Of a stretch of 64,000 bases of DNA, positions 42,931-59,936 are shown piece after piece. The position numbers and the translations under genes are program-made. Source of the stretch: Limimaricola sp. G21655-S1. GTDB taxonomy: Bacteria > Pseudomonadota > Alphaproteobacteria > Rhodobacterales > Rhodobacteraceae. The DNA lies in assembly GCF_027213785.1 (NCBI RefSeq), contig NZ_JAPWGO010000010.1, positions 62,001-126,000 of the forward strand. The letters are read 5' to 3'. A model generated the notes under the pieces. The model was not told where the DNA came from. It made no database searches and saw nothing but the letters and a program-made list of their open reading frames with translations. Each line of letters opens with the position of its first letter. The first letter of the stretch is position 1.

Positions 42931-42987
42931 CACATGGCTCCTCTTCGGGGCGACAGACTGCGCCAGAGCCGGTCGCTCCGCAACCCG

Positions 42988-44072: not shown

Positions 44073-44713
44073 GTGGCCTCCGGGCGGCTTGGGCGGCTCT
44101 CGGTCTGGAGCGGGGATGCGGGATGTCGAGCTTGCGGGGTCTCCGGCCATGGCTCGATCGTCAGCTCGGGCCAGCATGCCTTCTGCCGTGTCGCCTTGGC
44201 CTCGTGCGTCGCGCGGTTCGGCAGGATCGGGTTCGGCACGACCCGCATCGCGAAGACGTCTTCGAGGCCATGGGGCGCATAGATGTCGAAGCCGTCATCG
44301 GGGCGCAGCCGCATGCCGACGCAATGCGTGCGCGTCGCGAAGTGGTCGATCCCTTCGCGGCTCGACGCGTAATCCGGGCAGGCATGGCCGAAGCGTTCGC
44401 GGTACCACAGCGGCACCCGTGCCTGGTTGCGGATCTCGACCGGCGGCGCGGGGGCGAAAAACGGCGCGGTGCGGCGGATCACGCGGTCCTCGGCCGCCCA
44501 GCTCGTGTCGGGGTCGAAATAGAACAGGTCGATATCCTTGACCCCATGCAGCGCCGGCCGCCCGGTGAGCGCGTTCCACACCGCGCCGTAGAGCGCGCCA
44601 GAGACGATCCACCAATCGGGCAGGTCGAGCGCGCGCGCCGCACGGAATGCGGCCATGAGCTCCGGCGTGGCGCGGATGATCTCGACCAGTCGTTCCCGAA
44701 GCGCCTCGCTCAC
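44069..44713 (-). CDS. Nucleotidyltransferase-like protein (NTP_transf_6 type)
   Basis: This 214-residue protein looks like the stand-alone nucleotidyltransferase family PF06042. The metal-binding D60-x-D62 (GVKDIDLFYFD) follows the SGALYGAVWN segment, which replaces the usual GS motif. It starts with GTG at 44713 that overlaps the cobN stop (GTGA), and its stop overlaps lrgA. Its substrate is unknown. The nearest cobalamin nucleotidyl steps (GTP or adenosylation) belong to other folds, so I do not assign it one. Confidence 0.78.
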   Translation of the reverse strand: MSEALRERLVEIIRATPELMAAFRAARALDLPDWWIVSGALYGAVWNALTGRPALHGVKDIDLFYFDPDTSWAAEDRVIRRTAPFFAPAPPVEIRNQARVPLWYRERFGHACPDYASSREGIDHFATRTHCVGMRLRPDDGFDIYAPHGLEDVFAMRVVPNPILPNRATHEAKATRQKACWPELTIEPWPETPQARHPASPLQTESRPSRPEAT

Positions 44714-47700
44714 CGCAGCGCCTCGATCCGGGCGCGGGCCGAGTTCGAGCGCGGCTGCCACAGCCCGCGGTCGATCGCCTCCTGCAGCCGCTCGGCGATC
44801 TCCCTGAGCGCTGGCGGGTTGTGCTCGGCGACGAAGTCGCGCGTGTCCTCGTCGGCCAGCACCGCCTCCTCCACGAGGTCGAAATGGTGGTTCTTCACCG
44901 CCCGCGTGGTGGCGGCGAAGGCGAAGAGGTAGTCGACCGTCGCCGCGATTTCGAAGGCACCCTTGTAGCCGTGGCGCTTCACGCCATCGATCCATTTCGG
45001 GTTCACCACGCGGCTTCGCACGACGCGGGCGATCTCTTCGTCGAGGCTGCGGATGACCGGGCGCTCGGGACGCGAATGGTCATTGTGATAGATCGGACGC
45101 TCGCGGCCCTGAAGGCTCGCGACGGCCGCCGCCGCGCCGCCCTCGAACTGGTAGTAATCGTCCGAATCGAGGATGTCGTGCTCGCGGTTGTCCTGGTTCT
45201 GCACGATGGCCTCGACCTGTCCGAGCCTTGCGGCGAACCCGTCGCGGTCGGCCGTGCCCTCCTGTCCCGCGCCATAGGCATAGCCGCCCCAATCGAGATA
45301 GGCGGCGCCGAGATCGGCGCGCTCAGACCAGATCCGCTCGTCGATCAGGGCCTGAAGGCCGGCCCCGTAAGCGCCGGGCTTCGATCCATAGACCCGTGCG
45401 GCGGACCCGCCCGCGCGCACCCTCGCTGCCGCCGGGTTGGTCTCCTCGGGCTCGTCGAGCGCCTGCACGGCGCGGGCTGCGCTGTCGACCAGGGCCACCA
45501 GCTGCGGGAAGGCGTCGCGGAAGAAGCCCGAGATGCGCAAGGTCACGTCGACGCGGGGCCGTCCCAGCACCCCCTCGGGCAGCACCTCGAAGCCGGTGAC
45601 GCGGCGATTGGCGCTGTCCCATATCGGCTTCACGCCCATCAGGGCCAGCGCCTGCGCGATGTCGTCGCCGCCCGTGCGCATGTTGGCGGTGCCCCATGCG
45701 GTGACCAGCATGCTGCGCGGCCAGTCGCCATGGTCCTGCAGGTGTTTTTCGATCAGGAGGTTCGCCGATTTCCAGCCCAGCGCCCAAGCCGTGGGCGTCG
45801 GAACTGCGCGCGCGTCGACGGAGAAGAAGTTGCGCCCCGTCGGCAGCACGTCGGGTCGCCCGCGCGTCGGGGCGCCCGACGGGCCGGGCGCCACGGCGCG
45901 GCCATCGAGACCGGTGAGCAGGCCCGCACCCTCGGCCGGGCCGCAGGCGGCGATGGCGGGGCGGAGCTTCGTCTCGATCTCTCCCAGCACGGCGGCGGAG
46001 GCGGGGCCGGGGGCAGGGGCCCTGCCGTCGAGCAGGCGCTGGCACAGCTCCTCCAGCCGCTCCACCGTGTCGCCCGCGCTGCGCCACTTGCCCTCGCCCG
46101 AGAGCGCGTCGGGGCGCGGGCCGGTCCAGCTCGCCGTCATGTCGCAGTCGAGCGGGTCGAAGCCCAAGCATAGATCATCGGCCAACGCGCGCAGGATCGA
46201 GGCCGCGCCCGTGCCGCGCGGTACCCTTGCCAAGGCGATGGCGAGGTCGCGTTCCTGCCGTCCCTCGGGGCTTTGCCCGAACACGTGCAGCCCGTCGCGG
46301 ATCTGCGCCTCCTTCAGCTCGCACAGCCACGCGTCGAGCTTGGCGAGATCGGTGTCGGCCTGTCCCGAGAACCCGGCATCCGAGGCCAAGCCGGTGGTCT
46401 CGGCGAGGCTCAGAATCTCGCGGCGCAGATGGGTGATGCGGCGCGGATCGACGCCCGCGGCCTCGTAATATTCGTCCACCAGCGCTTCGAGATCGCGCAA
46501 GGGACCGTAGTTTTCGGCGCGGGTCAGAGGCGGGGTCAGGTGATCGATCACCACCGCCTGCGCGCGCCGCTTGGCCTGCGTGCCCTCGCCGGGATCGTTG
46601 ACGATGAACGGGTAGAGGTGCGGGGTCGCGCCGAGCGCGATCTCGGGCCAGCAGGTCTCCGACAGCGCCACCGCCTTGCCCGGCAGCCATTCGAGATTGC
46701 CGTGCTTGCCCATATGCACCACCGCGTCCGCGCCCCAGTGATGGCGCAGCCAGAAATGGAAGGCGAGGTAGTGGTGGGGCGGGACGAGATCGGGCGAGTG
46801 GTAGGTCTCGGTCGGGTCGATGTTGTAGCCCCGCGCGGGCTGCAGCCCGACCACCGCATTGCCGAACCGGTGCAGCGACAGGGCGAAGCCGCGCCCGGGC
46901 CCGCCGTCGGAATTGCGTATTTGGGGAGAGATGAAAGGATCGTCGCCCGGCGGCCCCCAACGGTCGAGGATCTGCTGCTTTGCAGCCCAGGGGAGTTCCG
47001 CGAAATGGCGCTCGTACTCTTCGAGCGGCAGCACCTCGCCGCCGTCGCGCGTCGCGCGGTCCGTCAGCCAGTTGGTCGGGCCCGCCATCAGCCGGTCCAT
47101 CAGCGCCTGCGCGTCCTCGGGCGTGTCCTCGACCGCATAACCTGCCCCCTGCATCAGCCGCAGCGCATGCACCGTGGCGGCGGGGGTGTCGAGACCGACG
47201 CCGTTGGCCAGCCGTCCGTCCTTGTTGGGGTAGTTGGCCAGCACCAGCGCCACCTTGCGATCGCAGGCGGGCGTGGCGCGCAGCCTTGCCCAGGCTGCTG
47301 CCAGCGCGGCCACGAAAGTGATCCGGTCCGCGCGGGGCTGGTAGGTGGCGACGCGGCATTGGGTCGCCTCGTCGAAGAAGGCCTCGCCCTTGAAGCCGAT
47401 GGCGCGGCTCAGGATCCGTCCGTCTACCTCCGGCAGTGCCACGTTCATCGCGATGTCGCGCGCCGAGAGACCGGTCAGCCCTTCTTCCCAGACCTCCTCG
47501 CTGCTGGCCGAGAGCACGATCTGGAACACCGGGGCCTCGTTGGCCGCCGGGGTGGCGAGCGGGTTGGGGGCCGAGGCGTCGCCCGCGCTCGCGCCTCCGG
47601 TCGCGAAAGAGGTGGCGTTGAGGATCACCGAGGGCGGCGCGGCCTCCATCAGCCCGGTCAGCGTGTCGCGCGAGACCGGGTCCTTGAGGGATGCCACGAA

Positions 47701-48405
47701 GACCGGCATCGGGTTCAGCCCGGCCCGCAGCAGGGCCCGCACCAGCCGGTCGATCGGCGCCAGCTGCGCGCCTTGCAGCAGCGCCCGGTAGAATACGACC
47801 GGCACGACCGGGGCATCTACGGCCCAGGCCTCGCGCAGCCGGTCGAGATCGGCGATGCCGAGGCCGGGCCAGTAGAGACCGGCGCGCAGCAGCGGGCGGG
47901 CGGCCTGTGGCGGCTCGGTGCCGTCGAGCATGTGCTTCGCATGGGCGAGGAATGCGGTCGCATTCTCGGGGCCGCCCTCGACGAGGTAGGACCACAGCGC
48001 GTCGTAATCCGCAGGCTTGACGGTCGACAGTTCGCGCAGCTCCGGGTCCGGCTTGTCGTCGCCGGGCAGGGCGGCGAAGGGCACGCCCGCCTCGGCCAGC
48101 CGGGCCGCGTATTGCACCAGCCCGTATTTCCAGTAGCCTGCGCCGCCCAGCACGCGCGCCACGACGAGGCGCGATCTCGTCGCGCAGTCGTCGAGATGCA
48201 GGTCCACCGACATCGGGTGCTGCAGATGCATCAGGCTCGCCAGCCGCAGATCGGGCGCGTCGGGCATCGAGGCCCGCGCCGCGCTCAGCGCGGCGAGCTC
48301 GGTGTCGGCGGCGGAGATGACGACGAGGTCGCCGGGCGTCTGGCCGAGATCGACGGCCTCGGTGCCGTCGGAGACGGTGCCCGGCGTGGCGGCGAGAAGA
48401 TGCAT
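44710..48405 (-). CDS. cobN: Cobaltochelatase subunit CobN
   Basis: CobN is the large subunit of the ATP-dependent aerobic cobaltochelatase, which inserts cobalt into hydrogenobyrinic acid a,c-diamide together with CobS and CobT. The 1231-residue protein shows the MgCoChl domain throughout, e.g. GKHGNLEWLPGK and GTANMRTGGDDIAQAL. CobS/CobT are not in the window. Because CobN resembles ChlH/BchH, a magnesium role was considered, but the cob neighbours argue for cobalt. The following gene overlaps its stop. Confidence 0.95.
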   Translation of the reverse strand: MHLLAATPGTVSDGTEAVDLGQTPGDLVVISAADTELAALSAARASMPDAPDLRLASLMHLQHPMSVDLHLDDCATRSRLVVARVLGGAGYWKYGLVQYAARLAEAGVPFAALPGDDKPDPELRELSTVKPADYDALWSYLVEGGPENATAFLAHAKHMLDGTEPPQAARPLLRAGLYWPGLGIADLDRLREAWAVDAPVVPVVFYRALLQGAQLAPIDRLVRALLRAGLNPMPVFVASLKDPVSRDTLTGLMEAAPPSVILNATSFATGGASAGDASAPNPLATPAANEAPVFQIVLSASSEEVWEEGLTGLSARDIAMNVALPEVDGRILSRAIGFKGEAFFDEATQCRVATYQPRADRITFVAALAAAWARLRATPACDRKVALVLANYPNKDGRLANGVGLDTPAATVHALRLMQGAGYAVEDTPEDAQALMDRLMAGPTNWLTDRATRDGGEVLPLEEYERHFAELPWAAKQQILDRWGPPGDDPFISPQIRNSDGGPGRGFALSLHRFGNAVVGLQPARGYNIDPTETYHSPDLVPPHHYLAFHFWLRHHWGADAVVHMGKHGNLEWLPGKAVALSETCWPEIALGATPHLYPFIVNDPGEGTQAKRRAQAVVIDHLTPPLTRAENYGPLRDLEALVDEYYEAAGVDPRRITHLRREILSLAETTGLASDAGFSGQADTDLAKLDAWLCELKEAQIRDGLHVFGQSPEGRQERDLAIALARVPRGTGAASILRALADDLCLGFDPLDCDMTASWTGPRPDALSGEGKWRSAGDTVERLEELCQRLLDGRAPAPGPASAAVLGEIETKLRPAIAACGPAEGAGLLTGLDGRAVAPGPSGAPTRGRPDVLPTGRNFFSVDARAVPTPTAWALGWKSANLLIEKHLQDHGDWPRSMLVTAWGTANMRTGGDDIAQALALMGVKPIWDSANRRVTGFEVLPEGVLGRPRVDVTLRISGFFRDAFPQLVALVDSAARAVQALDEPEETNPAAARVRAGGSAARVYGSKPGAYGAGLQALIDERIWSERADLGAAYLDWGGYAYGAGQEGTADRDGFAARLGQVEAIVQNQDNREHDILDSDDYYQFEGGAAAAVASLQGRERPIYHNDHSRPERPVIRSLDEEIARVVRSRVVNPKWIDGVKRHGYKGAFEIAATVDYLFAFAATTRAVKNHHFDLVEEAVLADEDTRDFVAEHNPPALREIAERLQEAIDRGLWQPRSNSARARIEALR

Positions 48406-48668: not shown

Positions 48669-49121
48669 TCACAGCCGCTTCTCCATGAAGACGCTCGACC
48701 CGTTCTCAGCGTAATCGCCGAACGGGCCCCGCACGGCGAAGCCGTGCCTTGCATAGAGACGATGGGCGGCGGCCAGCCTGTCGCCCGTCTCAAGCCGGAT
48801 GAGCGGCAGCGCCTCGTCGCGCGCCGTCCGCTCCAGCCGGTCGAGGAGCAAGGTGCCCACGCCGCGACCTCGCGCCGCCTCGGCCACGAAAATCGATTTC
48901 AGCTCGCCATAGCCCGGTTTCACGTGAAGCGCGCCGCAGCCCAACGGCGCGTCGTCCTCGTAGGCCGCGAAGAAGCGGATATCGGCGGCGTCGAGCGCCT
49001 CGATCGGCAGGAAGTGGTTTTCCTCGGGCGGGTAGAGAGAACGCATCAGCGCCTGGCTCGCCTCGACCAGCGCGCGCGGACCGGGATCGGTCGCGCGCGC
49101 CCGTTTCACGGTGACGCTCAC
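48669..49121 (-). CDS. GNAT-family N-acetyltransferase
   Basis: A 150-residue single-domain acetyltransferase. The acetyl-CoA motif is ARGRGVGTLLL near 84-94, preceded by GELKSIFV. It starts with a GTG at 49121 overlapping the cobW stop (GTGA) and is therefore in the cbtB-cbtA-cobW transcript. Nothing links it to cobalamin chemistry; many small GNATs ride in operons. Confidence 0.88.
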   Translation of the reverse strand: MSVTVKRARATDPGPRALVEASQALMRSLYPPEENHFLPIEALDAADIRFFAAYEDDAPLGCGALHVKPGYGELKSIFVAEAARGRGVGTLLLDRLERTARDEALPLIRLETGDRLAAAHRLYARHGFAVRGPFGDYAENGSSVFMEKRL

Positions 49122-50182
49122 GCCGCCAGCGCGGCCTCGATCGCCGCGCGGTCGAGCCCCGCCTCGCCGATCACCACCAGCCGGGTCTCGCGGGGGTCGG
49201 CACCGAAGGGACGGTCGAAATGGGTGTCGACGCGCGGACCCACCGCCTGCAGCGTCAGCCGCATCGGCTTGCCCGTCACCGCGACGAAACCCTTGAGCCG
49301 CAGGATGTCATGCGCGCGGATCACCTCGGCGACCTGCGCGGCAAAGGCCTTCGGATCGGTTACCTCGGGCCGCGTCACCACGAAGCTCTCGAACTCGTCA
49401 TGGCCGTGATGGTGCGCGGCGTCGTGGTGATCGTCGTCGTGATCATGGTGGTGATGCACCTCGTGGCGCGCCTCCATGTCGGCCTCGGCCGCGGCCCCCT
49501 GTCCGAGCAGCACCTCGACGGGCAGCGCGCCCATCGCCGCGCGCACCACCTGCACGCCGGTGCGGGCCTCGGATTTGAGCTTCGCGGCCAGCGCCTCGGC
49601 TTCCTCCGCGCCCAGGAGGTCGGTCTTGTTGACGACGATCATGTCGGCGGCGGCGATCTGGTCCTCGAACAGCTCCGACAGCGGCGTCTCGTGGTCGAGC
49701 CCGTCATCGGCGGCGCGCTGGACGTCGATCGCGGCGATGTCGTGGGCAAAGCGGCCCTCGGCCACCGCCTTGCCGTCGACCACGGTGACGACGCCGTCGA
49801 CGGTCACTCGGGTCGAGATGCCGGGCCAGTTGAAGGCGCGGATCAGCGGCTGCGGCAGCGCGAGGCCGGAGGTTTCGATCACGATGTGGTCGACCGGCTC
49901 GTCGCGGTCGAGGAGCTTTTCCATGGTCGGGATGAAGTCGTCCGCCACGGTGCAGCAGATGCAGCCATTCGACAGCTCGACCACGTCCTCGTCGCGGCAG
50001 CTCTCGATGCCGCAGCCCTTGAGGATGCCACCATCGACGCCGAGATCGCCGAATTCGTTGATCACGAGCGCGATGCGCTTTCCGCGCGCGTTCTCGAGCA
50101 GGTGACGGATCAGCGTGGTCTTTCCGGCGCCGAGAAAGCCGGTGACGACGGTGGCGGGGATCTTTGCGGGCATCGGGGTCAT
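49118..50182 (-). CDS. cobW: CobW metallochaperone GTPase
   Basis: CobW delivers cobalt for cobalamin synthesis using GTP. The 354-residue protein has the P-loop GFLGAGKT (15-22), the metal site CxCC (NGCICC, near 72-75), NKTDLL and a strongly His/Asp-rich loop near 235-263. The C-terminal domain (LRLKGFVAV) is typical. ATGs at 50182 and 50173 are both possible. It is separated from cbtA by the opposite-strand DUF1636 gene but is the next same-strand gene, consistent with its part in the riboswitch-controlled unit. Confidence 0.93.
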   Translation of the reverse strand: MTPMPAKIPATVVTGFLGAGKTTLIRHLLENARGKRIALVINEFGDLGVDGGILKGCGIESCRDEDVVELSNGCICCTVADDFIPTMEKLLDRDEPVDHIVIETSGLALPQPLIRAFNWPGISTRVTVDGVVTVVDGKAVAEGRFAHDIAAIDVQRAADDGLDHETPLSELFEDQIAAADMIVVNKTDLLGAEEAEALAAKLKSEARTGVQVVRAAMGALPVEVLLGQGAAAEADMEARHEVHHHHDHDDDHHDAAHHHGHDEFESFVVTRPEVTDPKAFAAQVAEVIRAHDILRLKGFVAVTGKPMRLTLQAVGPRVDTHFDRPFGADPRETRLVVIGEAGLDRAAIEAALAA

Positions 50183-50218: not shown

Positions 50219-50548
50219 ATGGACTGCATCACGATCTGCGCGACCTGCGCTGCGCCGGGGCAGGCGCCACGTGGCGCGGCGCTGGCCGAGGCGGTGGCCG
50301 AGGGTCTGCGCGAGGGCTGCGTGCTGCGCCTCGTCGATTGTCTCAATCTGTGCCATTCGCCCGTAGCCCTGTCGATCCGGGGGGCGGGCAAGACGGCCTA
50401 TCTCTTCTCCGGGGTGGACCCGGCCACGCAAGCGGCCGAGATCCGTGTTCTTGCCGATCTCTATGCCGAGGCGCCCGGCGGCGACATCACCGATGCGCGG
50501 CCGCTGGGCGGGCTCAGGCACCGGCTGGTGGGGCGCATCCCGGGCTAG
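50219..50548 (+). CDS. DUF1636 protein, cob-linked copy A
   Basis: A 109-residue DUF1636 protein with the Cys pattern C7-x2-C10 ... C41-x3-C45 (CATC and CLNLC), which resembles the thioredoxin-like 2Fe-2S ferredoxin family. GGGGGTGG lies before the ATG at 50219. It lies on the plus strand inside an otherwise minus-strand set, its end overlapping cbtA by four bases and its start 36 bases from that of cobW (divergent). It is shorter than copy B at 59553-59936. Its role is not known; a redox or cobalt function in cobalamin synthesis is inference from position. Confidence 0.85.
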   Translation: MDCITICATCAAPGQAPRGAALAEAVAEGLREGCVLRLVDCLNLCHSPVALSIRGAGKTAYLFSGVDPATQAAEIRVLADLYAEAPGGDITDARPLGGLRHRLVGRIPG

Positions 50549-51222
50549 GCCTCGCGCGACCAGATCCAGCCGGCGGCGAGGCCGAGGAACGCCCAGGCAG
50601 CGGCCGAGACCCCGAGCGCGCGCGCCGAGAACATGGCGGCCAGCTCCGGTGCGGCGCTGCCGAAGTAGCGGTCGAGATGCGGCGCGCCGATCAGATGCGG
50701 CGCGGCGATGAGCGCCACCCCGCCAGCGAGCCAGGCGGGGCCGCGACCGAAGGCCATCAGCGCGAGGCCCAGCGCGGTTGCGATCACGCAGAAGGCCCAC
50801 CAGGTCTGGCGCTCGCCGATCTCGGCGGCAAAGGTGCCCGGCAGTTCCGGCGGCAGCCCGAAGGCCGGTGCCAGCGACAGCGCCACGAATCCGCCGAGCC
50901 CCCACAACAGCCCGCGCCGCGCATCCACCTCGACGCCGCGCCGGGCCGCGAGCGCGAAGCCCGCCGCCAGCACGAAGCCGAAGCCGATCCAGCCGATGAT
51001 GTTGATGGCGAGCGTGCCCATATGGCGCCCCATGGCGTCGCCCAGCGGCGGCGCCCCGGCATCCGAGCCGATATGCCCATCCGTGAAATGCGCCCGCGCG
51101 CCGGACTCGTAGAGCTCGGCTTCCATCAGGAGGGGCACGACGAACCACAGCTGCAGGAGTGCGGCGAACACGCCTGCGGCCAGGCCGGCGAACAATGCGC
51201 TGGCCCCGATCTGTTTCAGCAT
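50545..51222 (-). CDS. cbtA: Cobalt transporter subunit CbtA
   Basis: A 225-residue membrane protein with five to six helices, the predicted cobalt permease CbtA that occurs with CbtB under cobalamin riboswitches in alphaproteobacteria. His residues lie near the first periplasmic loop (HFTDGH, GRHMG). The ATG at 51222 begins MLKQIGASALFAG; the open frame extends 20 codons upstream and overlaps cbtB, which is unlikely. It follows cbtB by 10 bases. Confidence 0.9.
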   Translation of the reverse strand: MLKQIGASALFAGLAAGVFAALLQLWFVVPLLMEAELYESGARAHFTDGHIGSDAGAPPLGDAMGRHMGTLAINIIGWIGFGFVLAAGFALAARRGVEVDARRGLLWGLGGFVALSLAPAFGLPPELPGTFAAEIGERQTWWAFCVIATALGLALMAFGRGPAWLAGGVALIAAPHLIGAPHLDRYFGSAAPELAAMFSARALGVSAAAWAFLGLAAGWIWSREA

Positions 51223-51232
51223 GATCGTGCGA

Positions 51233-51403
51233 TCAGTGGCAGGGAAAGCCGGTGGCGTGACGCGAATCATGGGCCACGTCATGCATGCCGCCGGCGTGGC
51301 TGAAGCCCGCGGCGAAGATCAGCCCGAGGCCGAACACGGCGGCGAAGGCGATGGTGGCGATCTCGAAAAGCGCGCCCGAGGAGGCGATGGTCTTGGTCGT
51401 CAT
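51233..51403 (-). CDS. cbtB: Cobalt transporter subunit CbtB
   Basis: CbtB is a 56-residue protein with one membrane helix (IATIAFAAVFGLGLIFAAG) and a His-rich C-terminus (HAGGMHDVAHDSRH, ending CH) that probably binds cobalt. AGGAG lies seven bases before the ATG at 51403. The frame extends upstream through the riboswitch and should be ignored there. It is the first gene after the riboswitch. Confidence 0.92.
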   Translation of the reverse strand: MTTKTIASSGALFEIATIAFAAVFGLGLIFAAGFSHAGGMHDVAHDSRHATGFPCH

Positions 51404-51449
51404 GTCAGTTCTCCTGTCCCGTCCACCCGACGGGGTCCTGGGTTTCATC

Positions 51450-51650
51450 GCGCAGGGCCGGTCTCCTGGCTCGCGGGTCGTGGCATCCCTCCACCTTCCC
51501 GGGATCTCTCCCAGTGGTTTCGAAGGGGCGCTCACCGCTTACAGTCGCGGGGGCGGCTGCGGCCGGGGGCCTCCTGACTGGATCGGCCCCTTCCGCATTC
51601 CCGATTTCCTCCCCTCGGGCGCTTCGCGCCGCATCGGGGAACCTTGCACC
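51450..51650 (-). promoter_or_regulatory. Cobalamin riboswitch upstream of cbtB
   Basis: On the minus strand the leader reads GTGCA (P1, 51649-51645), GGTTCC, then GCGGAA, CCCCCGCGACTGTAAGCGG, ACCACTGGG, GGGAAGG, and the B12 box GAGCCAGGAGACC (51472-51460), closing with TGCGC. These are the hallmark blocks of the AdoCbl riboswitch in their correct order. A short hairpin (CCCGTC/GACGGG at 51418-51434) lies between it and the cbtB ribosome site, with no T-run, so control is probably at translation. When cobalamin binds, cbtB and the genes after it should be off. Confidence 0.95.
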
Positions 51651-51653
51651 TTC

Positions 51654-51683
51654 GTTCTGCGCTGTCGCACCGCCCCGCGTCAA
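51654..51683 (-). promoter_or_regulatory. Promoter for the riboswitch transcript
   Basis: On the minus strand TTGACG (51683-51678) and CAGAAC (51659-51654) are 18 bases apart. Initiation about seven bases on would fall at 51647-51650, exactly the start of the riboswitch P1 helix, which supports the assignment despite the imperfect -10 box. Confidence 0.45.
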
Positions 51684-51760
51684 GCGCCAAGCCTTGGTCG
51701 AACGGCTCGGCCGTTGCGGGCGAAACGCGGCGGAACCCCGCGCGCAAAGGGCCGCGCGCG

Positions 51761-51790
51761 TTGACTTCGCGCCCCCCTTTCCCGCATAGG
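51761..51790 (+). promoter_or_regulatory. Candidate smc promoter
   Basis: TTGACT (51761-51766) and CATAGG (51785-51790) with 18 bases between them lie 35 bases before the smc ATG. With the riboswitch promoter, it makes a divergent pair in the 421-base gap 51404-51824, which otherwise holds only the riboswitch. Confidence 0.4.
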
Positions 51791-51824
51791 CGCGCGACCA
51801 CGAGCGCGAACGAGGGCGGCTTTC

Positions 51825-54800
51825 ATGCGATTCTCCCGGCTGCGGCTGAACGGCTTCAAGAGCTTCGTCGACCCGACCGATCTGGTGATCGATGACGGGC
51901 TGACCGGCGTGGTCGGGCCCAATGGCTGCGGCAAGTCGAACCTGCTGGAGGCGCTGCGCTGGGTGATGGGCGAGAACCGCCCCACCGCGATGCGCGGCGG
52001 CGGCATGGAGGACGTGATCTTCGCTGGCGCCGCGACCCGTCCCGCTCGCAACCACGCCGAGGTGACGCTCTCCATCGACAATGGCGAACGGCTCGCGCCC
52101 GCGGCCTTCAACGATTCCGACACGCTGGAGATCGTGCGCCGCATCACCCGCGATCTCGGCTCGGCCTACCGGCTCAACGGCAAGGAAGTCCGCGCCCGCG
52201 ACGTGCAGATGCTCTTCGCCGACGCCTCGACCGGCTCGCAATCGCCCGCCCTCGTGCGGCAGGGCCAGATCTCCGAGCTGATCAACGCCAAGCCGACCGC
52301 GCGTCGCCGTATCCTCGAAGAGGCGGCGGGCATCTCCGGGCTGTACCAGCGCCGCCACGAGGCCGAGCTGAAGCTGCGCGGGGCCGAGCAGAACCTGTCC
52401 CGCGTCGACGACGTGGTCGAAAGCCAGGCGGCGCAGCTCGCGACGCTGGCGCGGCAGGCCCGCACGGCGGCGCGCTACCGCGAGATCGGCACGGCGCTGC
52501 GCGCGGCCGAGGGCCTGCTGTTGTGGCTGCGCTGGAACGCCTCCGAAACGATGCGCCGCGCCGCCGAGGAAGAACTGCGCGAGATGGCGCAGGCCGCGGC
52601 CCGGGCCGACGGGCTCGCTGCCCGCGCGGTCGAGGCGCGCGCCGCCGCCGAGGCCGCGTTGCCGCCCCTGCGCGAGGAGGCGACGATCGCCGCTGCCGTG
52701 CTGAACCGCCAGGAGGCCGAGCGGGATCGGCTGCTCGATCAGGAAAAGCGGGCGCGGGGGGCGATCCGGGCCCTTGGCGCGCGGATCGAACAGCTCGACC
52801 GCGACATGGAGCGCGAAAGCGTGCTCGACCGCGACGCGGGCGAGACGATGCGCGCGCTCGAGGCCGAGGCGGCGGAGCTGGCACAGGCCGGGCAGGGGCA
52901 CGAGGCGCGGCTGGCGCAGGTCGAGGCGGTGGCCCGCGAGGCGGGCGAGATCCTGTCCGAGGCAGAGCACGCCCAAGGCCAGCGCACCGAGGACACCGCC
53001 CGGCTCGCGGCGCGGCATCAATCGGCGCAGCGTCTGGTGGCGGAGGCCCGGACCCGCATCGCCAAGAGCGCCGAGGCGGCGACGCAGGCGAAGGCCCAGC
53101 TCGACGCCGCAGGCACCGCCGCGTCACAGGCCGAAACCGTGCTGGCCGCGGCCGTCGAGGCCGAGACGCAGGCGAAGGTCGCGGCCGAGGCCGCCGAGGC
53201 CGATCTGGCCCGGGCCGAGACGGAGCGCGCGCAGGCGCAATCCGACGAGGCCGAGGCGCGGGCCGCCCGCGCCGGCGTCGAGGGCGAGGCCAAGGCGCTG
53301 CGCGCCGAGGTCGCCGGTCTGGCGCGCCTGGTCGAGCGCAGCGACGACAAGGGCCAGCAGCTTCTCGACCTGCTGAGGGTCGAACCGGGCTTCGAAAAGG
53401 CGCTGGGCGCGGCGCTGGGCGACGAGTTGAAGGCTCCCGTGGTCGATGCGCGCGGCACGACCGGCTGGGCCGAGCTGCCCGGTTACGACGCCGAACAGCC
53501 GCTGCCCGAGGACGCCGAGCCTTTGGCGGGCCTCGTCCATGCACCGGGATTGTTGGGGCGCCGGCTGGCGCAGGTCGGCGTGGTCGCGCGGGATCGGGGC
53601 GCGGCGCTGCAGGGCCGCCTGAAGCCCGGCCAGCGCCTGGTCAGCCGCGAGGGCGATCTGTGGCGCTGGGACGGCTACCGCGCCGGGGCCGAGGACGCGC
53701 CCTCGGCGGCGGCGCTGCGGCTGGAGCAGATGAACCGGCTCGCGGCGCTTCGCGGCGAGCTGGAGGTGATCGAGGCCAAGCTGGAAGAGCTGACCGAGCG
53801 CCATGCCGATGCGGCGGCCGCGCTGGAGCGCGCGAAGGAGGTCGATGCCCGCGCCCGCGGCGCCCGCCGCGCGGCCGAGACGGCGCTTTCCGAGGCCGCG
53901 CGCGCGCTCAGCCGCGCCGAGGGCGAGAAGGGCCGTGCCCAGACCCGCCGCGATGCCGCGAGCGAAGCGATGGGCCGGCACGAGGCCGAGGGCCGCGCCG
54001 GACGCGAGGCGCTGGTCGAGGCCGAGGCCGGGCTGCGCGATCTCGATGATCTCGACGCGGCGCGCGATGCCGTGGAACAGGGCCGCCAACTGGTCGAGGC
54101 GGCGCGGATCACCATGATCACCCGCCGCTCCGAAGCCGACGAGATCCGCCGCAACGGCGAGGCCCGGGCGCGGCGCGCCGAAGCGGTGGCGCGCGAGCTC
54201 GAAGGCTGGCGCGAGCGCGCCGAGACCGCGCGGGGCCGGGTCGGCGAGTTGACCGCGCGCCGCAGCGAGACCGAGGCGGAGCTGGAGCGCGCCCGCGAGC
54301 GGCCCGAGGCGATCTTTGCCGAGCGGCGCACGCTGGATGCGGGCATTGCCGAGGCCGAGGCGCGGCGCGACGCCGCCGCCGAGGCGCTGCGCACGGCCGA
54401 GGGCGCGCTTTCGGATGCGCAGGCCGCCGAACGCGCCGCCGAGCGCGCCGCCTCCGAGGCACGCGAGCGTCGCGCCGCCTCCGAGGCGCGCGCCGAGGCC
54501 GCCCGCGCCGCCGCGACCCAGGCGGCGGAACGGATCGAGGAGACGCTGGAGACCACGCCCGAGGCGCTGTTCGAAACGCTGGAGATCGGTGCGCTGGCGC
54601 CGCCGCCCACCGAGGAGGTCGAGGCCAAGGTCGCGCAGCTGCGCCGTCAGCGCGACGCGCTGGGCTCGGTCAACCTGCGCGCCGAGGAGGATGCCGAGGC
54701 GATCCGCACCGAGCATGACGGCCTCGTCGCCGAGAAGGCCGATCTCGAAGAGGCGATCCGCACGCTGCGTCAGGGCATCGGCAGCCTCAACCGCGAGGGG

Positions 54801-55280
54801 CGCGAGCGGCTGCTCGCCGCCTTCTCACAGGTCAACGAGAACTTCGGCACGCTGTTCACGCATCTGTTCGGCGGCGGCGAGGCGCGGCTGACCCTGGTCG
54901 AGAGCGACGACCCGCTCGAAGCCGGGCTCGAGATCCTGTGCCAGCCGCCGGGCAAGAAGCTCTCGGTGCTGTCGCTGCTGTCGGGCGGCGAACAGACCTT
55001 GACCGCGCTGGCGCTGATCTTCGCGGTGTTCCTCGCCAACCCGGCACCGATCTGCGTGCTCGACGAGGTCGACGCGCCGCTCGACGACGCCAACGTCACC
55101 CGGTTCTGCGACCTGCTCGACGAGATGACCCGCCGCACCGACACCCGTTTCCTGATCATCACCCACCACGCGGTGACGATGGCGCGGATGGACCGGCTCT
55201 ACGGAGTCACCATGGGCGAGCAGGGCGTGAGCCAGCTCGTGTCGGTGGATCTGCGCAAGGCAGAGCAGATGGTCGCCTGA
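51825..55280 (+). CDS. smc: Chromosome segregation protein SMC
   Basis: SMC with ScpA and ScpB compacts and separates chromosomes. The 1151-residue protein has Walker A GPNGCGKS (31-38), two very Ala/Glu/Arg-rich coiled coils, a hinge near 510-600 and the C-terminal signature LSGGEQ (1052-1057) with VLDEVDAPLDD (Walker B). It is a little short of usual length. The coiled-coil region is so biased that long shadow frames lie opposite. The ATG at 51825 (MRFSRLRLNGFKSF) is canonical. A hairpin GTTGCTTC/GAAGCAAC follows at 55284-55305 without T-run. scpA/scpB are not here. Confidence 0.95.
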   Translation: MRFSRLRLNGFKSFVDPTDLVIDDGLTGVVGPNGCGKSNLLEALRWVMGENRPTAMRGGGMEDVIFAGAATRPARNHAEVTLSIDNGERLAPAAFNDSDTLEIVRRITRDLGSAYRLNGKEVRARDVQMLFADASTGSQSPALVRQGQISELINAKPTARRRILEEAAGISGLYQRRHEAELKLRGAEQNLSRVDDVVESQAAQLATLARQARTAARYREIGTALRAAEGLLLWLRWNASETMRRAAEEELREMAQAAARADGLAARAVEARAAAEAALPPLREEATIAAAVLNRQEAERDRLLDQEKRARGAIRALGARIEQLDRDMERESVLDRDAGETMRALEAEAAELAQAGQGHEARLAQVEAVAREAGEILSEAEHAQGQRTEDTARLAARHQSAQRLVAEARTRIAKSAEAATQAKAQLDAAGTAASQAETVLAAAVEAETQAKVAAEAAEADLARAETERAQAQSDEAEARAARAGVEGEAKALRAEVAGLARLVERSDDKGQQLLDLLRVEPGFEKALGAALGDELKAPVVDARGTTGWAELPGYDAEQPLPEDAEPLAGLVHAPGLLGRRLAQVGVVARDRGAALQGRLKPGQRLVSREGDLWRWDGYRAGAEDAPSAAALRLEQMNRLAALRGELEVIEAKLEELTERHADAAAALERAKEVDARARGARRAAETALSEAARALSRAEGEKGRAQTRRDAASEAMGRHEAEGRAGREALVEAEAGLRDLDDLDAARDAVEQGRQLVEAARITMITRRSEADEIRRNGEARARRAEAVARELEGWRERAETARGRVGELTARRSETEAELERARERPEAIFAERRTLDAGIAEAEARRDAAAEALRTAEGALSDAQAAERAAERAASEARERRAASEARAEAARAAATQAAERIEETLETTPEALFETLEIGALAPPPTEEVEAKVAQLRRQRDALGSVNLRAEEDAEAIRTEHDGLVAEKADLEEAIRTLRQGIGSLNREGRERLLAAFSQVNENFGTLFTHLFGGGEARLTLVESDDPLEAGLEILCQPPGKKLSVLSLLSGGEQTLTALALIFAVFLANPAPICVLDEVDAPLDDANVTRFCDLLDEMTRRTDTRFLIITHHAVTMARMDRLYGVTMGEQGVSQLVSVDLRKAEQMVA

Positions 55281-55370
55281 CAGGTTGCTTCGGCGACGAA
55301 GCAACTCGTGATTGAAGAACCAAACGAGAACACTTGAGATAATTCGCCGTATTTGGCAAGACTTCCTCCT

Positions 55371-55397
55371 GCCGCGACACTTCGCGGCGAGGGGAGG
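55371..55397 (+). promoter_or_regulatory. Hairpin that could occlude the ribosome site of the micro-ORF
   Basis: GCCGCGA (55371-55377) and TCGCGGC (55382-55388) pair around CACT. The bases outside the stem, TCCTCC (55364-55369) and GGGGAGG (55391-55397), can also pair, and the second is the only ribosome binding site for the 29-codon frame at 55407. The leader before it contains an AT-rich GATAAT (55338-55343). I infer translation control by this structure. Confidence 0.45.
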
Positions 55398-55406
55398 TGA
55401 TATGCA

Positions 55407-55496
55407 TTGACCGAAGCCAGCTACCGTAAGTGGATGGTGGTCGTCGCAGTGGCAACGCTGGTGCTGACTGCCGTCCGTCTCTGGGTCGGGAGGTAA
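55407..55496 (+). CDS. Possible 29-residue membrane micropeptide
   Basis: A TTG at 55407 opens a 29-codon frame: MTEASYRKWM, then a hydrophobic helix of about 18 residues (VVVAVATLVLTAVRLWVG) and a terminal Arg. GGGGAGGTGAT lies 6-16 bases before the TTG, a very strong ribosome site. The nearer ATG (55402) gives only two codons. Such length, one helix and occluded ribosome site are features of type I toxin or membrane micropeptides, but no homologue is known to me and no antisense RNA is identified. It fills part of the 340-base gap between smc and the glutaredoxin fusion. Confidence 0.4.
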   Translation: MTEASYRKWMVVVAVATLVLTAVRLWVGR

Positions 55497-55512
55497 TCCC
55501 GGCAAAGAGAAA

Positions 55513-55538
55513 CCCCGCAGAGCGGCAACTCTGCGGGG
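55513..55538 (-). terminator. Terminator after the glutaredoxin-MauE gene
   Basis: CCCCGCAGAG and CTCTGCGGGG form a perfect 10-bp stem around a 6-base loop. On the minus strand it is followed by TTTCTCTTT, so it ends the minus-strand gene that stops at 55621, about 80 bases upstream on that strand. It may also stop the micro-ORF transcript on the plus strand, where no T-run follows. Confidence 0.75.
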
Positions 55539-55620
55539 CCCTGATCAGGGATGAGACATCATCGACCGATCGCTACCGTATGGCCGATATAATGTGCATC
55601 GACTGCGGAATTGTAAAGGC

Positions 55621-56358
55621 TCAGAGCAGCAGCCCGACCAGCATCCACAGGCCCATCCCGGCCATCATCACGTTCTCGGTGAGCGAGATGAACCCCAGGG
55701 GCACGTTGCTGTCGCCGCCGACGCAGGCGCACTTCAGCTCGCGCTTGTCGATCCAGACGGCCTTGATCACCGAGATCGCGCCGACCGTGCCGATGAACAG
55801 CGCCAGCGGCGCCGAGAACCAGGTCAGCAGCAGCGCCGTCATCAATACCCCTGCGATCCCCTCGGCCCAAGGATAGACATAGGCATAGGGCACCCAGCGC
55901 TGCGCCAGCAGGTCGTAATTGAGAAACCCGTTGGTGAAACTCTCCACGTCACGCAGCTTCTGCAGCGCCAGCAGGCACATCGAGATCGAGATGAACCAGC
56001 CGATGGTCTGCCACGCGAAGAAGCTGCCAAGCGCCACCCATGTCACCGCGATGGCGAGCGCCAGCCCCATGCCGAAGATCGCGATCACCGGTTGGTAGGT
56101 CGTGCCCTCGGGCTTGGCGGGCTTCATGTCGAAATGCGCACGCAGATCGTCATAGCCACCGATGCGTTCGCCATCGATGAAGGCTTGAGGCGTCGTCTTC
56201 ACGTTGTGCTCGCGCAGGAAGGCGTCGGTTGCCTCACGCGTGGTCAGTTCGTGATCCTCGACTTCGTATCCCTTTGATTTCAGAAGGTGCAGGGATTTCT
56301 GCCCGAAGGGGCAGTGATGCTTGGGCATCGACATGCGGTAGAGTTGGGCCTGGGCCAT
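55621..56358 (-). CDS. Glutaredoxin-MauE/DoxX-like membrane fusion protein
   Basis: The 245-residue protein starts with a glutaredoxin-like domain (about 1-78): C16 in HCPFG (a single-Cys active site), TTPQAFIDG with the cis-Pro, and GGYDDL. Five or so membrane helices follow (about 90-245) with ending C210-x-C212 (KCACVGG ... PLGFISLTEN), the signature of MauE/DoxX-type redox membrane proteins. Such proteins handle disulfide or thiol transfer, MauE in methylamine dehydrogenase maturation. No mau genes are here. The partner and direction of electron flow are unknown. Confidence 0.85.
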   Translation of the reverse strand: MAQAQLYRMSMPKHHCPFGQKSLHLLKSKGYEVEDHELTTREATDAFLREHNVKTTPQAFIDGERIGGYDDLRAHFDMKPAKPEGTTYQPVIAIFGMGLALAIAVTWVALGSFFAWQTIGWFISISMCLLALQKLRDVESFTNGFLNYDLLAQRWVPYAYVYPWAEGIAGVLMTALLLTWFSAPLALFIGTVGAISVIKAVWIDKRELKCACVGGDSNVPLGFISLTENVMMAGMGLWMLVGLLL

Positions 56359-56359
56359 C

Positions 56360-56394
56360 GCGGGGGCTCCCCTTCGTTGGAGACTTGCCCCCGC
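56360..56394 (-). promoter_or_regulatory. Leader hairpin over the glutaredoxin-MauE ribosome site
   Basis: GCGGGGGC (56360-56367) and GCCCCCGC (56387-56394) pair immediately before the ATG at 56358. The minus-strand ribosome site GGGGAG lies within the hairpin and can pair with CTCC inside. GC content alone makes such structures common here, so this is a weak call. Confidence 0.35.
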
Positions 56395-56439
56395 AACGCC
56401 CTTCCCGCGCTGGAAGGTTCCCGGGCGGTCCTTCGTGTC

Positions 56440-57642
56440 TCAGAGCGCCTCGAGCAGCGCCGGGGTCGGCCAGGCATCGGCCGGCAGGCCCAGCCGCTGC
56501 TGTTCGGCCTGCACCGCCTGCCGGGTCATCTCGCCCAGAATGCCGTCGGCGCCGCCCACGTCGTAGCCCCGCGCCTGCAGCTTTTCCTGCAACCGGACCA
56601 TCTGCTCGCCCGAAAGGCCGGGGGCCGGGTTGCCCGCGTCATAGACAGGTGCGCCCTCGAGCTGGTTGGCGAAATAGGCGGCGGTGGTGACGTAGACGAG
56701 GCTCTGGTTCCATTCGAAATAGACCCGAAAGTTCGGGTAGGCGAGGAAGGCGGGCCCGTCCTTGCCCATCGGCAGCAGCACCGAGGCCGGCAGATCGGCG
56801 GCGCCGAGATCGCCATCGCGCGCCGAAACGCCGAGCGCCTGCCACTCCGAGACGGGCCGCTGCGTATCGAGCCCGGTCTGGCTCCAGTCGAGGTTCTCGG
56901 GTACGGTGACCTCCTGCAGCCAAGGCTCACCCGCGCGCCAGCCGAGGCTCGAGAGCATCTTGCCGCCCGACAGCAGCGCGTCGCGGGCCGAGCCCTTGAG
57001 ATCGACGCGGCCATCGCCGTCGCCATCCATGCCGTTCTCGATGATATCCTCGGGCAGCATCTGCACCTGACCGATCTCGCCCGCCCAGGCGCCGGTGGTC
57101 GAGGCGGGGTCGATGCCGCCCTGCGCGTAGAGTTCCACGGCGGCGAGGAGCTGCGGGCGGAACAGTTCCGGGCGGCGGCAGTCATGCGCCAGCGTCGCCA
57201 GCGCGTTGACCGTGTTGAAGTCGCCCTGCACCGCGCCGTAATCGGTCTCGAAGGCCCAGAAGGCCAGCAGCACGCCACGCGGCACGCCGTATTCGACCTC
57301 GATCCGGTCGAAGGTCGAATCGTATTTCTCGGCGTTGGCGCGGCCATTGGCGATGCGGTTCTCCGAGATCAGCCGGCGCGAGAAGTCGATGAAATCGCGC
57401 TGGAACACGCCTTGCGCGCGGTCGGCCTGCAGCACCGACTGGTCGGGGCGCACGCCCGAGAAGAAGGTGTTCACCGTATCGGGCGCATGGCCCATCGCGG
57501 CGGCCTCGGCCTTCACCCCCTCGACCCAAGCACCGAAATCGCCGCCGCAGGGCGGCTTGGGGCCGGTGGCCTCCTGGGCCTGCGCGACGGCGGGCAGGGC
57601 CGCGAGGATCAGCGGGGCGGCGAGACGGGCGGTATGACGCAT
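56440..57642 (-). CDS. Membrane-bound-type lytic transglycosylase (MltB/SltB family)
   Basis: A 400-residue periplasmic enzyme. A signal peptide (1-23, ending AQAQ) has no lipobox. The catalytic Glu is E132 (FETDYG), and an EF-hand-like loop D206-G-D208-G-D210-G-R-V-D214 matches the calcium site known in E. coli Slt35. A peptidoglycan-binding domain (PG_binding_1) covers about 338-396. The ATG at 57642 fits the signal peptide; the frame upstream lies within cobD's end. It is 64 bases after cobD and could be read with it. Confidence 0.92.
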   Translation of the reverse strand: MRHTARLAAPLILAALPAVAQAQEATGPKPPCGGDFGAWVEGVKAEAAAMGHAPDTVNTFFSGVRPDQSVLQADRAQGVFQRDFIDFSRRLISENRIANGRANAEKYDSTFDRIEVEYGVPRGVLLAFWAFETDYGAVQGDFNTVNALATLAHDCRRPELFRPQLLAAVELYAQGGIDPASTTGAWAGEIGQVQMLPEDIIENGMDGDGDGRVDLKGSARDALLSGGKMLSSLGWRAGEPWLQEVTVPENLDWSQTGLDTQRPVSEWQALGVSARDGDLGAADLPASVLLPMGKDGPAFLAYPNFRVYFEWNQSLVYVTTAAYFANQLEGAPVYDAGNPAPGLSGEQMVRLQEKLQARGYDVGGADGILGEMTRQAVQAEQQRLGLPADAWPTPALLEAL

Positions 57643-57706
57643 GGGTGTTTGTCCTGACAATTGCGGGTCGCGGCGGAGCGTGACAGCGGCCACCGGCGGG
57701 GGCAAC

Positions 57707-58612
57707 TCACGTCCACGCCAGCACGATCACCACGCAAAGTCCCGCCGCCCATGCCTTCCACAGCATGGCGCAGGCAGCCTCGACCGCCGCCGCGCCGATC
57801 TCGCGCAGGCCTTGCGGATGGACCCAGGGAAAGTCCTGCATCCGGCCGTGATAGGCGCGCGGGCCCGACAGCGCCACGCCCAGTGCGCGCGCCATCGCCG
57901 CCTCGGGCCAGCCGGCATTGGGCGAACGGTGCAGCCGGGCATCGGCCGCGACCTCGCGCCAGGGGCCGGGGCGCCCCGAGACCAGCCAGATCAGCAGCGC
58001 GGTCAGGCGCGCGGGGATCCAGTTCATCACGTCGTCGAGCCGGGCCGAGGCCCAGCCGAAGCCCTCGTGGCGCGGCGTGCGGTAGCCGATCATCGAATCG
58101 GCTGTGTTGACGATCTTGTAGATCAGCAGCCCCGGCAGCCCGCCGATCAGGAACCAGAAGGCCGGGGCGGTAACGCCGTCGGAGAGGTTTTCGGCGGCGC
58201 TCTCGATCGCAGCGCGGGCGGCGGCCGCCTCGTCCATCGCCGCCGTGTCGCGCCCGACGATCATCGAAACCGCGCGGCGCCCCTCGGCGAGCGATTGCCG
58301 TAGGCCGGTGGCCACGGCGCGAACGTGATCGACGAGGCTGCGCTGCGCGAGCAGGATCGCCGTGACGAGGATCTCGGCAAAGGGGCCGGGCAGGGCGGCC
58401 AGCGCCTCGCCCAGCGAATAGGCGCCGAACACCAGCGCCGCGCAGGTCAGCGCGCCGCGCCCGCGCGCGGGGCCGCCGGTGTTGAGGCTGCGATCGAACC
58501 AGCCGACCACCCGCCCCATCAGCACCGCCGGGTGCGGCACCCGGCTCCAGACCTCCTCGGGTTCGCCGAATACCGCGTCGAGTGCCATGGCGATCAGCAG
58601 CCAGAAGCTCAC
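57707..58612 (-). CDS. cobD: Adenosylcobinamide-phosphate synthase (CobD/CbiB)
   Basis: CobD/CbiB attaches the aminopropanol phosphate arm to adenosylcobyric acid. The 301-residue integral membrane protein has its typical motifs: [34 protein letters not shown] and [18 protein letters not shown]. It starts with GTG at 58612 overlapping the cobC stop. The in-frame ATG further downstream would remove the conserved start [17 protein letters not shown]. Confidence 0.92.
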
Positions 58613-59556
58613 AGCGCGGCCTCGATCTGCCCCCAGCGATCGGGGGCGGGCAGGCCGAGCCGCAGATGCGTGGCCGACCACGGGAAGATCCGGCTCCAGA
58701 CATGGCCGTGGGCCAGCCGTTCCTGCCAGGCCGCCGCGTCCTCCACCTCGTAGAGGCGGAACAGGTCGGTGCCCCCTGCGACGCTCGCGCCGCGGGCGGT
58801 CATCATCGCGTCGAGCCGCGCCGCGTCCGACCTCAGCCGTTCGCGTGTCGTCCGGGCCCAGCCCTGATCCTCGAGCGCCCGCGCCCCGATGGCCAGCGCC
58901 GGTCCGGAGACGGGCCAGGGCCCGAGGCTCTCGGCCAGCGCCTCGATCAGCCCGGGCTCGGCGATGGCGAAGCCGAGGCGCAGCCCGGCGAGACCCCAGA
59001 ACTTGCCGAAGCTCTTGAGCACCACCGTGCCGGGGCGCCCCGCAAGGGCGACGAGAGACGCGTCGGGGCGGATGTCGCAGAAGCTTTCGTCGATCACGGC
59101 GAAACCGGCGGTGATCTCCGAGGCCTGCCAGATCCGGCCGTCGGGATTGTTGGGGTGCACCGCCACCTGTGCCTTGGCCGAGCGGGTGGTGATCTTCCAG
59201 CCGGCGGCGGCAAAGGCCGCCTCGTGCTCGTTGTAGGTGGGACCCGGGATGCGCACCGCACCGGTCGGCGCGAGGCGCGGCAGCCGCGCGATCAGCGCCG
59301 AGGCCCCGGGCGCGGCAAGGATCGCGGCGCCTTCCGGCACCCGCCAGAACCGGCGCGCGGCGGCGACCAGCCGGTCCTGCGCGGCCCGGTCCGGCAGCGC
59401 GGTCCAGGCGTCGAAGGGCAGGGCGCCGACCGGGTAGGGCACCGGGTTGATGCCGGTCGAGAGGTCGAGCCAGCCCTCGCGCGTACCGCCATGCCGAGCG
59501 ATCGCCGCGTCGAGGCCGCCGCCATGATCGCGGCTCGCCAGGGTCGCCTCGCTCAT
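58609..59556 (-). CDS. cobC: Threonine-phosphate decarboxylase CobC
   Basis: CobC decarboxylates threonine phosphate to aminopropanol phosphate for the cobalamin side arm. The 315-residue PLP enzyme has K185 ([15 protein letters not shown]), N137, D156 (VIDESF) and R193. The N-terminal HGG (residues 22-24) and LDLSTGINP are the family signature. Its ATG overlaps the DUF1636 stop and its stop overlaps cobD, so DUF1636-cobC-cobD is a coupled trio. Confidence 0.93.
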
Positions 59557-59936
59557 TCGGTGTCCGGCAGCGGCGGGTGGCGGGTCACGAAATGCCCCTT
59601 CACCGCCTGCGGCCATGTCCTGTAGGGCACCTGGCCCGTCGCGCTCTCGCCATGCAGCACCGCCCAGTCGACGATCCCGCGCGCGGCTTCTTCGGAAACC
59701 TCGAACCGGCCCAGCGTGTAGTTCAGCTTGCCCGCCGCCTGCACCGCGACGTTGCAGCCCTGCTGGCAGCCCATCAGGCAGGAGGTGCGGCGTGTGCGCA
59801 CCGGCAGGCCCTCGGCCGCCTGCTCGACGAGGCTGGCGAGGCGTTCGCCATCGGTCGCGCCGGAGGTCTCGTCCCAGCCCTCGCGCTTGCAGGTGTCGCA
59901 GATGGTGATCCAGGTGGTGGGGCTTTGCGTGCTCAT
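59553..59936 (-). CDS. DUF1636 protein, cob-linked copy B
   Basis: A 127-residue DUF1636 protein with Cys at C13-x2-C16 (CDTC) and C53-x3-C57-x3-C61 (CLMGCQQGC), then a [16 protein letters not shown] segment. It looks like a thioredoxin-like 2Fe-2S ferredoxin. It leads the coupled trio with cobC and cobD, so a role in cobalamin synthesis is likely by position, but no reaction is known. It is longer than copy A and has one extra Cys. Confidence 0.87.

Follow-up and report, generated by a model that had tools for sequence, protein, structure and literature searches.

Classical thioredoxin-like [2Fe-2S] ferredoxins have a widely spaced first cysteine (Cys) pair. Their fold was proposed in 2015 for the protein family DUF1636, which was modelled on the Aquifex ferredoxin of this type with a remark on its altered cysteines (PMC4520260, passages available), and the part available of a 2026 database paper classes the family with electron transport and with the biogenesis of Fe-S clusters (PMC12828279). 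The closest solved homologue, Protein Data Bank (PDB) entry 9jn8, was released on 2025-02-19 under the title “Crystal structure of a thioredoxin-like ferredoxin of Rhodobacter capsulatus” with the molecule name “ORF378”; a literature search found no publication on it, and its description here comes from the entry title and the sequence. Here we analyze two DUF1636 proteins, D1 (109 aa, four motif Cys; 50219..50548, + strand) and D2 (127 aa, five motif Cys; 59553..59936, − strand), encoded in a 64,000-nucleotide window of Limimaricola sp. G21655-S1 (contig NZ_JAPWGO010000010.1, positions 62,001 to 126,000). The pair is real and well conserved, and its fold was previously known from the 2015 proposal and 9jn8. 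These sources overturn the word “undescribed” in an initial annotation of the window, which had suggested an undescribed redox partner in aerobic cobalamin (B12) synthesis. What is new here is the link to a riboswitch regulon, the split of clades by gene context, and the antisense position of D1. We consider it about evenly balanced whether D1, D2, and their family are [2Fe-2S] electron carriers of a B12/cobalt regulon with clade-specific partners; that D1 and D2 transfer electrons at some point in the metabolism of cobalt or B12 is probable.

Both proteins exceed the Pfam cut-off of 31.6 bits for PF07845 (DUF1636), D1 with 56.7 bits and D2 with 86.5 bits, and the positions, lengths, and shared Cys pattern first annotated for them were correct. 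The assembled genome contains no third copy. The layout in D1 is C7-x2-C10, 30 residues, and C41-x3-C45; in D2 it is C13-x2-C16, 36 residues, and C53-x3-C57, followed by C61. We collected 70 DUF1636 proteins in total, leaving out five matches from our genome sample below the Pfam cut-off and the gene at locus L011, which had no open frame within the limits of the script. Both Cys pairs are present in all 38 rows of a chosen alignment and in 69 of the 70 proteins, the exception being an 82-aa frame at L046 that begins after the first pair and was omitted from alignment A1. An additional Cys follows C-x3-C in 60 of these 69 by script (31 of 38 alignment rows by eye), so the fifth Cys of D2 is the family norm, and D1 is among the nine proteins without it. 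This reverses the earlier reading, which took the additional Cys in D2 as a hint of a special role.

Modelling the fold, which the initial annotation had proposed, supported its comparison with thioredoxin-like ferredoxins. The AlphaFold2 models of D2 (predicted local distance difference test, pLDDT, 91.0; predicted template modelling score, pTM, 0.86) and D1 (pLDDT 94.2, pTM 0.87) both had 9jn8 as their top PDB match, with Z 17.8 and a root-mean-square deviation of 1.9 over 114 for D2 and Z 17.1 and 1.9 over 107 for D1. Matches to the Aquifex [2Fe-2S] ferredoxin 1m2a ranked next (D2, Z 9.6, 3.4 over 92; D1, Z 10.8, 2.5 over 87), and further structural matches of both models included the Azotobacter ferredoxin, NuoE, and domains of bifurcating enzymes. 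The predicted fold of both proteins is thus that of a thioredoxin-like ferredoxin, and each would be a single-domain electron carrier. Most likely, each binds one [2Fe-2S] cluster through the four Cys of the C-x2-C and C-x3-C pairs.

At the sequence level, 9jn8 belongs to the same family (A1 profile E 4.5e-34; D2 E 1.4e-8) and shares the fold and the C-x2-C / C-x3-C motif with D1 and D2. Of the proteins we collected, the eight that match it best are cobW-cobN-linked copies without exception (65% for the one at L046), whereas D2 matches at 31% and D1 at 30%, and both sit in other clades. The classical [2Fe-2S] ferredoxins (Aquifex 1m2a/1f37 and Azotobacter FeSI 5abr) match the fold of D1 and D2 with Z about 8-11 and NuoE-type domains with Z about 6-8; the second pair, C-x3-C, is shared as well, and the sequence match to the DUF1636 family profile is weak (5abr, E 0.17; 1f37, E 0.34). 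Against the NCBIfam model NF041613 for Azotobacter-type 2Fe-2S ferredoxins, D2 scored 17.5 bits (cut-off 195) and D1 was unmatched.

In order to place the family in its genomic setting, we used a class sample of 289 evenly drawn alphaproteobacterial genomes, 55 of which carried DUF1636 over the cut-off. We tested 62 copies for neighbors, with 40 random 20-kb regions as controls (length-weighted, from 21 long contigs, so that few genomes dominate); several DUF1636 loci are truncated by contig ends. The initial annotation had proposed counting how often such genes lie near cob genes across genomes, and the count bore out the association: 36 of 62 copies have a core cob/cbt gene, cobW, or btuC/F no more than 2 kb away, versus 1 of 40 controls. 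Taken separately, core cob/cbt genes were found within this distance of 27 of 62 copies (1 of 40 random regions), cobW of 21 (0 of 40), and btuC/F of nine (0 of 40). In a draw of 299 genomes from the phylum, all 54 with DUF1636 over the cut-off came from the window's own class; a plasmid collection added one betaproteobacterium and one cyanobacterium, and of ten pattern matches on viral contigs none was a relative.

Cobalamin riboswitches connect many of these genes to B12 and are the strongest of the new evidence. Rfam placed one in 23 of 31 hand-chosen loci and directly before DUF1636 in 11 of the 31. A riboswitch model that we built from 28 such riboswitches found 40 in 67 DUF1636 loci and none in 40 control regions. 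DUF1636 is the first gene, 79-168 nt behind a same-strand riboswitch, for 21 of 70 genes, and 11 of these 21 leading riboswitches lay outside the model-building set. The 21 comprise 13 cobW-cobN loci, one cobT-cobC locus, four btuDFC-like importers, a family-5 importer at L062, L063, where a COG0523-type GTPase is encoded at a distance of 1.1 kb, and the short contig L058. Another eight of the 70 genes have a same-strand riboswitch 1.0-5.6 kb upstream, a distance that does not imply a shared transcript, and three, D1 included, have one on the opposite strand only. Viewed from the riboswitches, 13 of 68 in 20 hand-chosen carrier genomes lead a DUF1636 gene (compared by hand). In the passages available to us, the literature on DUF1636 does not mention riboswitches, and that on B12, cobalt, or riboswitches deals with other genes; a search for COG5469, which we take to be the COG number of DUF1636, found no paper.

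At L062, the riboswitch and DUF1636 are followed by the gene of a family-5 (NikA/peptide-type) solute-binding protein (L062:6597-9000), which exceeds the cut-off of PF00496 and stays below those of the NikA models. Its position hints that this importer takes up cobalt or a corrinoid.

Many family members would thus belong to a B12/cobalt regulon, with clades split by partner genes. The route by which low-potential electrons get to cobalt while B12 is assembled or salvaged is known only in part, and a riboswitch-wired ferredoxin family whose subfamilies track cobalt import, insertion, and salvage would supply named candidates that can be tested gene by gene, the label “domain of unknown function” giving way to a fold and a regulon. 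The data establish the family, the fold, the conserved Cys, the contexts typical of each clade, and the riboswitches ahead of many members; we infer both the cluster type and the delivery of electrons to a step that handles corrinoids or cobalt.

Several results weigh against this assignment. No cobalamin riboswitch was found within the tested distances of 38 of the 70 genes, D2 included, and for 24 of 62 copies the available sequence up to 5 kb away contained neither a cob gene nor cobW or btuC/F, so the association with cobalamin is strong without being universal. Co-occurrence across genomes speaks for the assignment (cobB over cut-off in 44 of 55 carriers versus 61 of 234 others; Fisher 1.8e-13), but the counts are uncorrected for phylogeny. 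DUF1636 is absent from 61 of 105 cobB genomes, which rules out a general need for the family in B12 synthesis. The first Cys pair of D1 and D2, C-x2-C, is unlike the widely spaced pair of classical ferredoxins. Finally, some DUF1636 genes lie near those for a ZnuA-like protein, for a Fur/Zur-family regulator accompanied by a COG0523-type GTPase, or for family-5 solute-binding proteins, and such neighbors suit a metal handler too.

Such a handler would use the four Cys to bind Co(II)/Zn(II) and pass it among CbtA, CobW, and CobN, with the same fold but no cluster. Besides the metal-related neighbors just named, it gains from the presence of CbtA and CobW and from a short form of CobN in 17 of 17 class-sample genomes with a cobW-cobN-linked copy (among the matches listed). 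CobW, a COG0523 GTPase metallochaperone of a Pfam family other than DUF1636's, is together with the cobaltochelatase CobN the operon partner of these copies, and it also flanks D1. We nevertheless regard this alternative as unlikely: 9jn8 was deposited as a ferredoxin, and the D2 clade is associated with the import of corrinoids and with cobC/cobD, contexts in which free cobalt is not moved. Also weighing against it are two groups of nrdAB and DUF1636 behind an upstream riboswitch, one in an alphaproteobacterium and one in a cyanobacterium (L051 and L005). Here the gene content suggests that DUF1636 serves a reductase that uses no corrinoid, if the enzyme is of class I as the genes indicate, and an electron carrier fits better than a cobalt binder. 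In E. coli, a ferredoxin gene adjoins nrdAB, and with this parallel an electron-carrying role fits the nrdAB groups best.

Regarding the short CobN, DUF1636 was carried by 21 of 24 genomes with the short form, 27 of 85 with the long form, and seven of 180 with neither (among the matches listed). These lists were sorted by hand and include the sub-cut-off genomes G078, G228, and G073; the short-CobN frame of L082 was sorted as long because of an over-long start. The short form (G018, G131, G034, and others) has about 80 residues fewer, corresponding roughly to residues 736-812 of the window's CobN, and it goes with DUF1636-cobW-cobN-cobG clusters. The idea that it works with another motor subunit ended with the finding of CobT in 49 of 50 genomes tested.

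Carriers that lack ring synthesis bear on the choice of step. There was no cobB match, even a partial one, in nine of the 55 carrier genomes, and none of the nine had cobJ over the cut-off. These genomes argue against a role in ring synthesis only and rule out a tie to the aerobic ring pathway alone, so the family cannot be confined to aerobic cobalamin synthesis as initially annotated. A CobO match is present in three of these genomes (G031, G191, and G060), which would suit reduction before adenosylation; the other six gave no match to the CobO family, PduO-type transferases not having been searched for. Two of the three, G031 and G191 (loci L050 and L060), combine CobO with a CobN of more than 1600 bits; they have retained the cobaltochelatase in the absence of corrin-ring synthesis, perhaps to act on metal-free corrinoids that are imported.

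These genomes bear on a more specific proposal, raised as an example in the initial annotation, that DUF1636 is the reductant, or the ferredoxin of the reductant, that takes Co(II) to Co(I) in cobyrinic acid a,c-diamide or cobinamide before CobO. The D2-clade copies in salvage clusters speak for it, as do the presence of cobP/cobC/cobQ and CobO in G031 and G191 and the position of cobO, a divergent neighbor 0.4-1.9 kb away in 13 of 18 cobW-cobN-linked loci (hand count). We find it doubtful all the same, given that the available passage of PMC7242693 already describes the flavoenzyme CobR for that step, that CobO-family matches are missing from the six carriers above, and that the D1 clade adjoins a cobalt importer and not CobO.

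The oxygen-dependent precorrin-3B synthase, CobG or CobZ, would be another recipient of electrons. Among cobB genomes, DUF1636 occurs in 22 of 28 with cobG over the cut-off versus 22 of 77 without; cobG follows DUF1636-cobW-cobN in 16 of 18 loci, the other two being interrupted by contig ends; and the Limimaricola genome itself encodes CobZ (609.5 bits). Yet the family is also retained where ring synthesis is missing, and the btu, cbt, and nrdAB contexts have no cobG, making this role very improbable. The preference for cobG genomes and the association with short CobN may both reflect shared descent.

The gene contexts of the family split by clade. The tree is based on 135 columns and leaves many forks unresolved; L094, whose frame continues into the next gene, was trimmed to 130 residues for it. 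D1 falls in a nine-row clade (support 96/92), eight rows of which adjoin cbtA: five window-type loci (the window itself and loci chosen to match it) and three independent draws. The clade of D2 has fourteen rows (99/98) and includes salvage clusters of the btuCD-cobP and btuCD-cobC types, one cobT-cobC cluster, two more btuCD loci, copies next to uvrC (a neighbor confirmed in one case), and unlinked copies. Copies linked to cobW-cobN are spread over more than one group. By their sequences, D1 and D2 belong to separate old subfamilies, one linked to cbtA and the other to cobC/btu. The initial suggestion of separate roles thus stands insofar as it can be referred to two well-supported clades with different contexts, and falls insofar as it leaned on the extra Cys. 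The D1 clade pairs with the cobalt importer CbtAB, the D2 clade includes copies linked to genes for corrinoid import and the late steps of assembly (btuCD, cobP, cobC, and cobD), and other copies pair with cobW-cobN or btuDFC-like importers. The role we favor for D2 would be to reduce the cobalt of corrinoids at or near adenosylation or salvage, and that for D1 would be a redox step tied to cobalt entry.

D1 lies antisense between cbtA and cobW. It occupies the 362-nt gap between them, starting 36 nt from the cobW start, head to head, and its stop overlaps that of cbtA, stop to stop, in CTAG. The surrounding genes all run on the − strand: cbtB (51233..51403), which encodes a proposed cobalt transporter subunit of 56 aa (PF09489 60.6 bits, cut-off 27), cbtA for the other proposed subunit (50545..51222; PF09490 141 bits; TIGR02458 186 bits, cut-off 182.9), and the GTPase gene cobW (49118..50182; TIGR02475 509.7 bits, cut-off 332.1), with an acetyltransferase gene and cobN further along. 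A cobalamin riboswitch precedes cbtB-cbtA on the same strand (51439..51661; Rfam RF00174 90.5 bits, cut-off 31.5); our own model R1 scores it at 132.9 bits, this sequence having been among its inputs. It is the only RF00174 riboswitch in the window and stands opposite D1; neither D1 nor D2 has one directly upstream on its own strand. D1 therefore adjoins the genes of the riboswitch-led cbtB-cbtA-cobW operon and is no member of it; the initial annotation was right to place it beside cbtA and cobW and passed over its strand.

Among three Limimaricola relatives, the ratio of replacement to silent change (dN/dS) is 0.26-0.45 for D1, silent change exceeding replacement, and 0.06-0.23 for D2, indicating that both are under purifying selection. 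The possibility that D1 is a chance antisense frame is ruled out by this ratio below 1, along with its Pfam score and conserved Cys.

Twelve named loci reach both cbtA and cobW. D1 is present in eight, always antisense, with 366-881 nt between the matches (L177 was counted as positive from the neighbor survey, the gap script having found no start codon there); in the remaining four the two genes are nearly contiguous, with a gap of 11-92 nt. D1 is thus optional at this locus. Searches in 20 sources found 17 riboswitches, every one on the cbtBA or cobW strand, which suggests that D1 expression may be opposed by the surrounding import operon. A consensus search found no sigma-70 promoter or terminator near D1. 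A more elaborate version of electron transfer in B12 handling, which we hold only tentatively and think unlikely as a whole, would make the family a dedicated set of “B12 ferredoxins,” carriers induced at low B12 that deliver the physiological electrons for cobalt and corrinoid chemistry, with a separate clade for import, for the insertion of cobalt, and for salvage and adenosylation. Full-length transcription of the riboswitch-led cbtBA-cobW unit at low B12 would then oppose expression of the cbtA-linked D1, which in Rhodobacteraceae sits antisense inside this unit.

D2 is followed directly by cobC (58609..59556, − strand; PF00155 over cut-off; TIGR01140 284.7 bits, just under 290.55) and cobD of the CbiB family (57707..58612, − strand; PF03186 311.8 bits; TIGR00380 190.5 bits, cut-off 165.9). 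The D2 stop and the cobC start share ATGA, and the coupling to cobC-cobD reported earlier is thereby upheld, with Pfam and NCBIfam supporting the neighbors' identities apart from the narrow TIGR01140 shortfall. The nearest named relative of D2 among the matches listed is from Limimaricola soesokkakensis (98%). In the best 80 of at least 585 relatives, which are close kin and not independent, the same-strand neighbor was cobC in 76 and cobD in four, that is, in 80 of 80 loci. The operon of D2 with cobC/cobD is conserved.

The Limimaricola genome mixes pathway enzymes, with cbiD as well as cobB alongside CobZ, CobN, and CobT (G000:C77:82635-85861 and G000:C99:66673-68037). The window also encodes the corrinoid adenosyltransferase CobO (42322..42933, − strand; TIGR00708 222.7 bits at G000:C11:104325-104849) and the long form of the cobaltochelatase subunit CobN (44710..48405, − strand; TIGR02257 1606 bits). 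A Lys-rich, charged frame of 60 residues without a Pfam match (48484-48666, + strand) lies antisense to the operon between cobN and the gene of a GNAT acetyltransferase (48669..49121, − strand; PF00583 66.7 bits, cut-off 20.7). This acetyltransferase, located between cobW and cobN in the window, recurs at the same place in many of the named loci.

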